A program made the position numbers and the translations under genes. Positions 13,244 to 17,776 of a stretch of 59,770 bases of DNA are shown piece after piece. This DNA comes from an uncultured Acidimicrobiia bacterium (GTDB lineage: Bacteria > Actinomycetota > Acidimicrobiia > Acidimicrobiales > CAIXPF01). A model generated the notes under the pieces. That model saw only the letters and a program-made list of their open reading frames with translations. It did not search any database and was not told the DNA's origin. Where the stretch lies: the NCBI GenBank assembly GCA_903921205.1, contig CAIXPF010000204.1, forward strand, positions 1 to 59,770, given 5' to 3'. Numbering within the stretch: the stretch's first letter is position 1; each line of letters starts with the position of its first letter.

Positions 13244-15712
13244 ATGGCCGGGGTGCTCGACGGGATCCGCGTCTTCGACCTGACCCTGGCCGCGGTCGGT
13301 CCGTGGTCGGCGAAGCTGCTCGGCCAGCTCGGAGCCGACGTGCTGCACGTCGAGGGCCCCAAGCCGGAACTGGCCCATCACATCCCGCCGGAGATCGCCG
13401 GCGTCGGGGTGCTGTACCTGACGGCGAACACCAACAAACGCAGCGTCCTGCTCGACCTCAAGCGCGACGACGACCGTCGCCGGGCGCTCGAGCTGGCCGC
13501 GACCTGCGACGTGTTCGTCCAGAACATGCGCCCCGGTGCGGTCGAGAAGCTCGGCCTGGGTTACGCCGAGGTGGCGCGGCGGCGGGCCGACATCATCTAC
13601 GTGTCGGCGTCGGCCTACGGCCGGGTGGGCCCGATGGCCTCCGAGGCCGGCGTCGACCCTCTGCTGCAGGCGTTCTGCGGCTGGTCGTCCATCAACGGTC
13701 AACCCGGCGGGGACGGTGAGCTGTTCCGGCACTACGCCCATCTCGATCTCACGACCAGCTCGATGATCGTGGAAGCGGTGCTCGCGGCCCTGTACGTACG
13801 GTTCGGTACGGGTCGCGGCCAGCACATCGAGCTCGAGATGTTGACCGCGGCCCTGTCGTTGCAGTCGAACCACCTGGCCGATCACGCGGCGACCGGGGTC
13901 GCTCCCGTCCCGCGCGGGTCGGCATCGGCCACCACCGCGCCGCATCAGGCCTTCCGGTGTTCTGACGGCCGGTGGCTGGCCGTCGCCGTCGAACGCGACG
14001 AGCAGTGGCCCCGGCTCTGCACCGCCCTCGACGTCGCGGATCTCGCTGCCGACGTGGGGTTGGCCACCAACGCCGGCCGCCTGGCCCGACGCGACGAGGT
14101 GGCCGCCCGTCTGGCCGCGGTGATGGCCACGCGTCCGGCCGCCTGGTGGGCGATGTGCTGCAATCGTCAGGACGTTCCGCACGGCCGGGTGCTCGACTTC
14201 GACGAGCTGCGCCACCACCCCCAGGTGACCGCCAACCAGCACCTGGTCGAAGTCAATACCGAGCGGTATGGAACGCTGGTGCTCGACGGGGTCCCGTGGA
14301 AGTTCGGCGCCACCCCGGCCCGGACCCCCGTCCCCGGCGGGGTGGCCGGCGCGCACACCGAAGCGGTGCTGGACGAACTCGCCGGACTGACCGGTACGAC
14401 CGGACTGACCGGTACGACCGGTCTGACCGGAGCGACCGGCACGGCGGTGAGCGAACCGATCGGTACGGCGACGACCGCCGGGTCGGACGCGGCGGCCGGG
14501 CCGCTCGGTGCGCCGTTGGCCGGGGTGGTCGTCGTCGAGCTGGGGGAGGGGATGGCCGGGCCGTTCGCAGCGTCGCGTCTGGGCGACCTCGGGGCCGAGG
14601 TGATCAAGATCGAACGTCTCAGCGGCGACCCGGCTCGCGGCCACGGCCACGATCTCGGCGGCGACGGGCTGCTCAGTGCCACCTTCGCCGCCCTGAACCG
14701 CAACAAGCGCAGCCTTGCCGTCGATCTCGACACCCCCGGGGGGCGCGACGTCGTCCGCCGAGTCGTCGCCGGTGCCGACATCGTCATCGAGGCCCTCCGG
14801 CCGGGCGAGGCCGATCGGCTCGGCCTCGACGCGGCGACGCTCGCCGCCGAGTATCCGCAGGTGGTGTACGTGGCCGTGTCGGGCTGGGGCGAGCACGGCC
14901 CCCTGGCCGACCGGCCTGCTGCCGAGCTGCCGGTGCAGGCCATGGCCGAGTACACCGCCTCGCTCGGCCGCATCGGCGATCCGCCGGTGCGGTTGGGCAC
15001 CGACGTGGCGGGCCTGAACACGGGCATCTTCGCCTGCCAGGCGGCGCTGGCCGGTCTGCTCACGCGCCGCCGTGACGGGCGGGGGCAACGCATCGCCGTG
15101 TCGATGTTCGGGACCCTGCTGCACCTGCGGGGGATCATGTGGGCCGCGCGCTCCAACCCTGATGACTGGTTCGGCTTCCACCTCGACCACTACACCAACC
15201 CGCCGGAGGGCGGTTACCGCACCGCCGACGGGCAGCTGCTGTTCGGCCTGCGGCGGGGCACCAGCGAGGACTTCGACCGGCTGATGATCGGCCTCGGCCT
15301 GCTCGAGCACCTCGACGATCAGCGCTTCGAGGGCTTCGGCCGTGAGGCCGCCCCGCTCGGTCGGTATGCCGTCGAGGCCAAGGAGGTGTGGGAGTCGGCG
15401 TTCGCCGAGCGGGACACCGAGGAGCTCATCGGTCTGTTCCAGGCGGTGGGCGGCGATGCGGTGCCGTTCACCGACTACCCGCGGATCACCGCCCACCCGC
15501 AGGTGGCGGCGATCGGCGCGTTGACCACCGTCGAGCAGGAGGGGTACGGACCGATGCGTGCGGTGTCGCCCCCGTGGAAGTTCGCCCGGACCCCGGCGTC
15601 GATCCGCCGCGGAGCGCCGCAGCTCGGTGCGCACGGTGACGAGGTGCTCGTCGAGGCCGGACTCGACCTGGCCGAGGTCGCGGCGCTGCGCGAGCGCCGC
15701 ATCATCCGCTGA
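13244..15712 (+). CDS. Fused double CaiB/BaiF CoA-transferase
   Basis: An 822-residue protein made of two complete class III CoA-transferase halves in one chain. Half one (about 1-375) begins GVLDGIRVFDLTLAAVGPW and contains ANTNKRSVLLDLKRDDDRR and NMRPGAVEKLGLG. Half two (about 415-822) begins APLAGVVVVELGEGMAGPF and contains ALNRNKRSLAVDLDTPGGRD and EALRPGEADRLGLD. They are joined by a Gly/Thr-rich linker with a three-fold LTGTTG-type repeat. Ordinary family members are 380-430 residues and work as interlocked dimers, so this chain may fold as an intramolecular pseudo-dimer with two non-equivalent sites. The start is preceded by CAGGGGGAACGCC. The acid acceptor is unknown. Confidence 0.9.
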   Translation: MAGVLDGIRVFDLTLAAVGPWSAKLLGQLGADVLHVEGPKPELAHHIPPEIAGVGVLYLTANTNKRSVLLDLKRDDDRRRALELAATCDVFVQNMRPGAVEKLGLGYAEVARRRADIIYVSASAYGRVGPMASEAGVDPLLQAFCGWSSINGQPGGDGELFRHYAHLDLTTSSMIVEAVLAALYVRFGTGRGQHIELEMLTAALSLQSNHLADHAATGVAPVPRGSASATTAPHQAFRCSDGRWLAVAVERDEQWPRLCTALDVADLAADVGLATNAGRLARRDEVAARLAAVMATRPAAWWAMCCNRQDVPHGRVLDFDELRHHPQVTANQHLVEVNTERYGTLVLDGVPWKFGATPARTPVPGGVAGAHTEAVLDELAGLTGTTGLTGTTGLTGATGTAVSEPIGTATTAGSDAAAGPLGAPLAGVVVVELGEGMAGPFAASRLGDLGAEVIKIERLSGDPARGHGHDLGGDGLLSATFAALNRNKRSLAVDLDTPGGRDVVRRVVAGADIVIEALRPGEADRLGLDAATLAAEYPQVVYVAVSGWGEHGPLADRPAAELPVQAMAEYTASLGRIGDPPVRLGTDVAGLNTGIFACQAALAGLLTRRRDGRGQRIAVSMFGTLLHLRGIMWAARSNPDDWFGFHLDHYTNPPEGGYRTADGQLLFGLRRGTSEDFDRLMIGLGLLEHLDDQRFEGFGREAAPLGRYAVEAKEVWESAFAERDTEELIGLFQAVGGDAVPFTDYPRITAHPQVAAIGALTTVEQEGYGPMRAVSPPWKFARTPASIRRGAPQLGAHGDEVLVEAGLDLAEVAALRERRIIR
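14384..14437 (+). repeat. In-frame 18-bp tandem repeat, 3 copies, in the CaiB-CaiB linker
   Basis: GGACTGACCGGTACGACC occurs at 14384-14401 and 14402-14419, with a variant at 14420-14437 (GGTCTGACCGGAGCGACC). It encodes LTGTTG-like units in the interdomain linker. Copy number could change by slippage without breaking the frame. Confidence 0.85.
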
Positions 15713-16045: not shown

Positions 16046-17776
16046 ATGTCCGACTACGACGTCGTATGGCCCCGCAGCCCCCGTACCGCCGAGCTGGTGA
16101 CGTTGGCACCGCGCCCGGCGAGCCTGGAGGGCAAGCGGATCGCGTTCATCTGGGACTACCTGTTCCGCGGCGACGAGATCTTCCCCATCCTGCAGCGTGA
16201 GCTGACCCGGCTGATCCCCGGCGTGCAGTTCGTCTCCTACGAGGCGTTCGGCACCACCCACGGCGCCGGTGAGCACGAGGTGCTCGACAGCTTCCCGGCC
16301 CGGTTCCGTGAGCTGGGGGTCGACGCCGCCATCTCCGGGATGGGGTGTTGAGGCAGCTGCACGCCCGCCGTGTTGCGGGCATCCGCTGCAGCCGAACTGG
16401 CCGGGGTGCCGACCTCGTCGCTGGTCTGCGAAGGCTTCCTGGGCCAGGCCGCCTCCACCTCGAGTGGCCTGGGCATGCCGAACCTGCCGGTCGCGGTGGT
16501 GCCCGGCCACGTCGACACCCAGCCCGCTGACGAGCTGGAACGCAACATCGTCGAGGTCACCCTGGCGCGTGTGATCGAGAACCTCACCGCAGCACCCGAC
16601 GAGGCGGTGGTCGCGCCCGAGCCAGGCCCCACCGAGGTGGTCTTCCGCGGTTCCTTCGAGGAGGTCAACCGGCTCTACTACGAGAACCGCTGGTCCGACG
16701 GGCTGCCGATCGTGCCACCCACGGTCGAGGCGGTCGAGGCGTTCCTGGCCTACACCGAGCTCGACGCGCAGCACAGCTTCGGCCCGCTGCTGCCCGACCG
16801 ACGCGCCGCAACCGTGTGGTCGGCCGCGGTCAACGCAGTCATGGCCGGCTGCCGGCCCGAGTACTTCCCGGTGCTGCTGGCCGTGGTCGAGGCGCTGGCC
16901 GATCCGGCCTACGGGGTCGAGCACTCCGGCAACACCCCAGGGGCGGAGACGCTGATCACCGTGAACGGGCCGATCGCCCGTCAGCTCGGCTTCAACGACG
17001 AGCAGGGCGCGTTGCGCGACGGGTTCCAGGCCAACACCAGCATCGGGCGCTTCTTCCGCCTGTACCTGCGCAACGTGGCCGGGTTCCTGCCGTGGGAGAC
17101 CGACAAGGGCACCTTCGGCAACACCTGGCGGGTGGCGATGGCCGAGAACGAGGCGGTGCTCGCCGAGATCGGCTGGCCGCCCCAGTCGAGCGACTTCGGG
17201 TTCTCCGCAGGTGAGAACGCCGTCACCATCTCGCGCTACACCGGTGGCGGGGTGGTCACCTCGGTGTTCGGCCAGACCCCTGAGCAGATGGTCGACTACC
17301 TCGCCGACGCGCTCACCAAGATCGGCGGCTGGGAGTACGTGTTCACCGTCGGCGTGGCGTCGGACACCTACCGGCCGCTGCTGCTGTTGAGCCCGGTCCT
17401 GGCCCGTACCATCGCCGCAGGCGGCTGGTCTCGCCGTGATCTCAAGGTGGCGCTGTGGGAACGGGCCCGACTGCCGGCCTCGAAGTTCGAGCGGTACCTG
17501 GGGGAGTGGACGAACCTGGTGCCGGGCCGGCGGACCCTCGAGGACCTGGTCAACCTGCGCAAGGCCGACCGGGTGTTCAAGCAGTCGACCGATCCGGATC
17601 GCCTGGTGCCGATCGTGGCCGACCCCGACCACATCCAGATCGCGGTGACCGGCGACCCGCTGCGAACCAACGCCTACGTCTTCGCCCACAACGGCATGTT
17701 GGGGTTCCCCACCGCCAAGGCCGTGCGGCTGCCGGCCGACTGGGAGGCCCGCCTCGCCACCGCCCGCGACCGGTGA
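16046..17776 (+). CDS. UGSC-family selenoprotein with in-frame UGA (Sec102)
   Basis: A single 577-codon frame is interrupted only by TGA at 16349-16351. Codons on both sides have the same high-GC third-position bias, and the protein context is SGMGC-TGA-GSCTPAV, so the TGA falls at the U of the U/C-G-S-C motif that gives this family its name. I read it as selenocysteine 102 in a C-U-G-S-C site (C101, U102, C105), suggesting a redox-active Sec/Cys pair. Residues 1-160 form the UGSC domain (GKRIAFIWDYLFRGDEIFP). From about 210 a second domain begins (NRWSDGLPIVPPTVEAVEAF) that is shared with the next gene. A TAGTCA hexamer lies 6 nt before the ATG. Its biochemical function is unknown. The alternative, a pseudogene or two separate genes, is unlikely given the motif position and the hairpin. 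Confidence 0.88.
16352..16394 (+). promoter_or_regulatory. Candidate bacterial SECIS element
   Basis: Directly after the UGA, GCTGCA (16356-16361) pairs with TGCAGC (16387-16392), and GCCCGC (16363-16368) pairs with GCGGGC (16375-16380). The apical loop CGTGTT (16369-16374) contains a GU. The apical stem starts 11 nt after the UGA, as in known bacterial SECIS hairpins that bind SelB. An asymmetric internal loop (1 nt against 6 nt) separates the stems. Confidence 0.75.

Follow-up and report, generated by a model that had tools for sequence, protein, structure and literature searches.

A UGSC-Family Selenoprotein Gene with a Fused Partner Domain in an Uncultured Acidimicrobiia Bacterium and Its Predicted Relation to the Glycine and Proline Reductases

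Introduction

In the selenoenzymes GrdB and PrdB, the selenolate of a selenocysteine (Sec) residue attacks an activated substrate at a carbon, the bond is then reductively cleaved, and thiols close the catalytic cycle. A selenoprotein family named for its U-G-S-C motif, the "UGSC-containing protein" family (now PF24696 and NF041046), was reported in 2008 in the Global Ocean Sampling selenoproteome, where its members were counted among the most abundant selenoproteins of water samples and were presumed to have a thioredoxin-like fold (PMC2398784). The same report presents a UGSC/Unknown_1 fusion (Figure S1A), in which a UGSC selenoprotein is joined to a second conserved domain that has a conserved Cys of its own, with neither a function nor a wider pairing reported for it (PMC2398784).

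Here we describe a gene that is a new member of this already known but uncharacterised selenoprotein family. It lies in a stretch of 59,770 nucleotides from an uncultured Acidimicrobiia bacterium (contig CAIXPF010000204.1), which we refer to as the window. Its protein has the same domain and the same motif as the UGSC family, from which it differs in carrying an extra Cys directly before Sec and a fused C-terminal domain, whereas the stand-alone members seen in this study are proteins of about 175 residues. The arrangement is very probably that of the 2008 fusion, and the Unknown_1 domain is probably the C-terminal domain of the window protein. The GrdB/GrdF (PF07355) and PrdB subunits are the second point of comparison: they share with the window protein a remotely homologous Sec domain, a partner subunit encoded alongside, and, in some operons, a thioredoxin system, and they differ from it in the nature of that partner.

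Gene Organization and Family Membership

The coordinates of the gene and its features are collected in Table 1. The reading frame opens with an ATG, closes with a TGA at 17774-17776, and holds 576 sense codons ahead of that terminator, with the TGA of codon 102 as its sole internal stop; translation of the window thus agrees with the first-pass annotation, which had described a continuous frame broken at this one triplet. That annotation had also placed the TGA at the position of the family's U/C-G-S-C motif, as is indeed the case, since its flanks read SGMGC-U-GSCTPAV and the motif is invariant at this position in the 32 members aligned. Gene finding under the standard code divides the frame, as had been predicted, into products of 101 residues (16046-16351) and 468 residues (from a GTG, 16370-17776).

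Table 1. Features of the selenoprotein locus (positions in the window).
Feature	Position	Strand	Remarks
Selenoprotein gene, UGSC domain plus unnamed C-terminal domain	16046..17776	+	576 residues, Sec at 102
UGSC domain (PF24696)	16046..16633	+	predicted Rossmann-like alpha/beta; Sec after strand 94-100, before helix 105-118
Cys101, directly 5' of Sec	16346..16348	+	Cys in 15/15 aligned fusion loci
UGA decoded as selenocysteine, Sec102	16349..16351	+	kept in all fusion orthologs; Sec machinery present
Cys105, resolving Cys of U-G-S-C	16358..16360	+	no exception among 32 aligned UGSC members
Bacterial SECIS apical hairpin, GCCCGC-CGUGUU-GCGGGC	16363..16380	+	11 nt after UGA
C-terminal partner domain, about 380 residues	16631..17773	+	no Pfam/NCBIfam family; predicted well-folded, pLDDT 90
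Near-invariant Cys, NAVMAGC motif of C-terminal domain	16850..16852	+	codon from window sequence
Second, free-standing C-domain copy, 388 residues	17773..18939	+	GTG start overlaps fusion TGA stop (GTGA, 17773-17776)

Assignment to the UGSC family, as originally proposed, is correct by Pfam PF24696, which matches residues 5-181 with 99.7 bits against a gathering cut-off of 25, although the NCBIfam equivalog NF041046 reaches 42.8 bits against a curated cut-off of 125; passing the one and falling far below the other, the window protein represents a divergent branch of the family. The mark of this branch is Cys101, which turns the motif into C-U-G-S-C; elsewhere in the family the sequence reads ALAD-U, GLGN-U, and the like, with D, N, H, G, or T before Sec in most of the other branches. 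The C-U-x-x-C center that had been recognized at the outset is conserved in each of the 15 fusion loci aligned.

Selenocysteine Decoding

The UGA of codon 102 is almost certainly read as Sec, with SelB and tRNA-Sec acting at the SECIS hairpin directly downstream. The apical stem of this hairpin pairs 16363-16368 with 16375-16380, and its loop has a G within the first two positions, the criterion for a bacterial SECIS element. The six-pair stem is paired in 90 of 90 cells across orthologs, the changes comprising one compensatory double change from G-C to A-U (ortholog L025) and one G-U pair (L039). The CCC, GCC, GTG, and CGG codons just after the UGA do not vary among the 13 orthologs; codon identity over the hairpin is 0.79 where the codon usage of the individual genes predicts 0.39, compared with 0.50 against an expected 0.46 in 161 other conserved columns, and none of 100,000 permutations was as extreme. 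The best codon-conserved eight-codon window of the whole gene is this same stretch. We regard such conservation at the nucleotide level as the decisive evidence for the predicted SECIS, and it bears out the hairpin, with its 11-nt gap and GU-containing loop, that had been drawn from the letters of the window. Folding energy was considered as a further line of evidence and set aside as uninformative in G+C-rich DNA (z = -0.30). On a simple hairpin score, 10 of 100 normal TGA terminators of the window did as well or better, and an Rfam search of the hairpin region returned no match. By the same simple score, a comparable hairpin lies 10-11 nt after the UGA in the paralogous UGSC genes on contigs C157 and C31 of the genome, and not in the third paralog (C106).

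The decoding machinery for which a search of the genome had been recommended was found in full: a tRNA-Sec (66.2 bits against the Rfam gathering threshold of 47, with the anticodon given as tca by ARAGORN), selA and selB on one contig, and a Sec-type selD that itself has a UGA in its active site. The 395 genomes of the class gave 12 fusion matches that are full or nearly so, each with a single internal TGA; these span 46-100% identity including the window gene itself, the other orthologs lying at 46-95%. The TGA is also kept at 68% identity in the L025 ortholog, from another group (Immundisolibacterales). Alignment of homologs at codon 102 therefore gives TGA in every full-length fusion ortholog found, with TGC in some other family members; TAA or TAG at this codon, a lone N-terminal gene, or homologs ending at the UGA were not seen among the orthologs. 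Furthermore, selA is present in all 15 tested genomes that carry a homolog but in just 1 of the 15 that lack one (Fisher p 2e-7), and dN is below dS both upstream and downstream of the TGA, which indicates purifying selection on both sides.

Two other readings of the UGA have to be weighed against this evidence. Because the identity of the inserted residue is beyond the reach of sequence alone, another amino acid could in principle be delivered by a near-cognate tRNA, but a genuine tRNA-Sec with SelA, SelB, and SelD in the genome, the co-occurrence with selA, and the TGC of other family members, which is the pattern expected of Sec/Cys pairs, make this very improbable. That the UGA is a real stop, which would leave a 101-residue product and a separate 468-residue protein starting at GTG 16370, or a decayed gene, accords with the two ORFs of standard-code gene finding, but its probability is negligible, and a pseudogene or a pair of independent genes is excluded for practical purposes, given the complete machinery, the conservation of the TGA down to 46% identity, the selA co-occurrence, the selection on both sides, the frozen hairpin codons, and the position of that GTG inside the conserved UGSC domain.

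Predicted Structural Organization of the UGSC Domain and Its Remote Homologs

In the UGSC domain model (pLDDT 93), strands and helices follow one another in a Rossmann-like manner, and Sec closes a strand just ahead of a helix; the domain is thus predicted to be Rossmann-like, unlike the thioredoxin-like fold presumed in 2008. A fold search gave generic alpha/beta matches only, such as PurE (Z about 9), and no thioredoxin, GrdB, or PrdB chain is among the fold matches listed, an absence that excludes nothing.

Profile comparison shows the UGSC domain to be remotely homologous to the Sec domains of GrdB, GrdF, and PrdB. A profile of 32 UGSC domains aligned to one of the GrdB/PrdB Sec domains with an hhalign probability of 95, an E value of 3.7e-8, and a score of 58.6, placing Sec on Sec, whereas controls with reversed profiles and 60 column-shuffled ones scored 22.7 at most. 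Single UGSC members compared with NCBIfam gave weak matches to sarcosine reductase GrdF (1.4e-4), glycine reductase GrdB (6.6e-4), and proline reductase PrdB (3.8e-3). The window fusion protein itself has no match listed to the GRDB family PF07355 up to an E value of 10, and the PDB, searched by sequence with the protein and with each of the two profiles, gave no match. We found no statement of a link between UGSC and GrdB/PrdB in the literature searched, which is not proof of novelty.

The same genome holds three short PrdB-like stretches (C139:69361-69732, C126:3020-3445, and C115:10204-10617), which correspond to the C-terminal half of PF07355, and no GrdE homolog. Four sister copies of these stretches (L087 and L089-L091) run on into an in-frame UGA, so the stretches may be further unannotated selenoproteins.

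The C-Terminal Partner Domain and Its Pairing with UGSC

The C-terminal domain of about 380 residues matched no family in Pfam or NCBIfam, and its model has no confident relative among solved structures. Class I fumarases come out best in Foldseek (E 1.7e-3, at a probability of about 0.5). Across the fold searches, the domain resembled fumarase, Toblerone, and chorismate mutase weakly, and VIA-align Z for the fumarase and Toblerone resemblance was 4-6. As a GrdE homolog the domain was considered and rejected, the probability of its match to a GrdE profile, a few rows of which may be poorly trimmed, being 0.1. PF09338, the GrdE family, was not found in the genome; in combination with a C-domain that shows no similarity to this pyruvoyl subunit, this leaves classical pyruvoyl activation unsupported.

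The association of the two domains is strict. Around the C-domain matches of the class we collected 55 stretches (one pair of them overlapping), and in every one a UGSC gene is fused to the C-domain or directly adjacent to it on the same strand; among the UGSC genes that the motif pattern resolved, about 45 have TGA and 3 have TGC. In the genome of the window organism, the C-domain is also encoded as a separate gene beside the UGSC genes on C157, C31, and C106. The pair recurs on plasmids of other phyla (Arthrobacter, Roseovarius, Variovorax, Haloterrigena, and Paracoccus), and in most relatives a UGSC subunit and a C-domain subunit are encoded by two adjacent genes. Since the pair is adjacent or fused across the class and on plasmids, it is a two-part system of which the window gene is the one-chain form. 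Searches with the C-domain matched 24 plasmid records; the UGSC domain had no match in plasmids at an E value of 1e-5, and phage records gave none. No neighbor of the fusion is conserved apart from the tandem C-domain copy, which is shared by the nearest relatives.

On a Paracoccus ferrooxidans plasmid (L100:6369-6938), the annotation breaks a UGSC selenoprotein at its UGA into two hypothetical proteins, and the plasmid also carries selB, about 4 kb from this gene. Two further fusions, on Sporomusa termitida (L093:6323-8047) and Vibrio europaeus (L094:6344-8029) plasmids, have Met in place of Sec or Cys (DMGTS) and adjoin aconitase X and DUF126 genes. With Met at the Sec position in two such distant fusions, not all relatives are capable of selenol or thiol chemistry at this position, and this branch of the wider family has lost it.

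Genomic Neighborhood and Possible Electron Supply

The neighbors of the window gene encode a CoA-transferase III, acyl-CoA dehydrogenases, SDRs, an enoyl-CoA hydratase, and a zinc alcohol dehydrogenase, and these degradative functions point to organic-acid degradation, with a small acid or the CoA ester of one as a possible substrate. The CoA-transferase III gene (13244-15712, 822 residues) has two PF02515 copies in one chain. Near a Cys-type fusion in Variovorax boronicumulans (L099:1-3338) lie genes resembling those of hydroxyproline catabolism, for succinate-semialdehyde dehydrogenase and members of the dihydrodipicolinate synthase and ornithine cyclodeaminase families, which are a possible hint at a substrate.

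Thioredoxin genes accompany the pair in several relatives. The gene order is trxB-trxA-Cdomain-UGSC in Arthrobacter and Cdomain-UGSC-trxB in Roseovarius, and genes of the thioredoxin reductase type lie close to the pair in Variovorax SRS16, V. boronicumulans, and Haloterrigena. Within Acidimicrobiia, a thioredoxin reductase-like gene is near only 1 of the 55 stretches, and for the window organism we can therefore only infer the electron donor. That single case is locus L107 (G227:C14:49500-61500), where a UGSC gene, two tandem C-domain genes, and the thioredoxin reductase-like gene stand in one row.

Proposed Mechanism

The reading that, as a whole, explains these observations best, and to which we give somewhat better than even chances, is that of a GrdB/PrdB-like Sec reductase in the one-chain form of a two-component enzyme; it is drawn by analogy, the homology to GrdB/PrdB being the reason why the same chemistry is proposed for Sec102. 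The C-domain would bind and activate the substrate in place of a pyruvoyl subunit, and the selenolate of Sec102 would attack the substrate held there, probably with the involvement of the near-invariant Cys of the C-domain, so that a C-X or other bond would be reduced or reductively cleaved. The oxidized center would end as a selenenyl sulfide between Sec102 and Cys105 or, in this branch, Cys101, and thioredoxin-type thiols would reduce it again.

A plain selenol-thiol oxidoreductase is the most serious competitor, though a doubtful one: the C-U-x-x-C center would exchange disulfides or reduce peroxide-like substrates, with the C-domain merely a docking surface or a client, and no carbon substrate would be reductively cleaved. 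The UxxC motif and the adjacency of trxA and trxB in some relatives fit this scheme, but the predicted Rossmann-like fold, with no thioredoxin among the matches listed, argues against it, as do the nearest remote homologs, which are the substrate reductases GrdB, GrdF, and PrdB rather than redoxins, and the unbroken association with a C-domain that is both large and conserved, which suggests a dedicated substrate. The weak structural resemblance of the C-domain to class I fumarase and Toblerone cyclic amide hydrolases, and the aconitase X and DUF126 genes beside the Met-type fusions, suggest that the C-domain is itself a dehydratase- or lyase-like catalyst for which the UGSC domain serves as a redox switch. 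This is improbable, since the resemblance stays in a Z range also seen for unrelated folds, and the domain lacks a conserved set of Fe-S cysteines.

Conclusions

Under the preferred reading of the window protein as a GrdB/PrdB-like reductase, a wider and more tentative proposal may be made, to which we lend rather less than even weight: UGSC and its C-domain may form a branch of wide distribution within the glycine/proline reductase superfamily, in which an undescribed activating partner replaces the pyruvoyl subunit and Sec serves the reductive cleavage of a common substrate. Fused and paired copies of the system are missed because standard gene calling cuts such genes in two at the UGA. To the family as already known, the present analysis adds the link to GrdB/PrdB, the Rossmann-like prediction, and the strict pairing with the C-domain. 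If the proposal is true, this superfamily branch would reach beyond the clostridial amino-acid reducers, into Acidimicrobiia and even halophilic archaea. The link of the Sec domain to GrdB/PrdB, in combination with a constant, unannotated C-domain partner, gives the UGSC family a testable mechanism.
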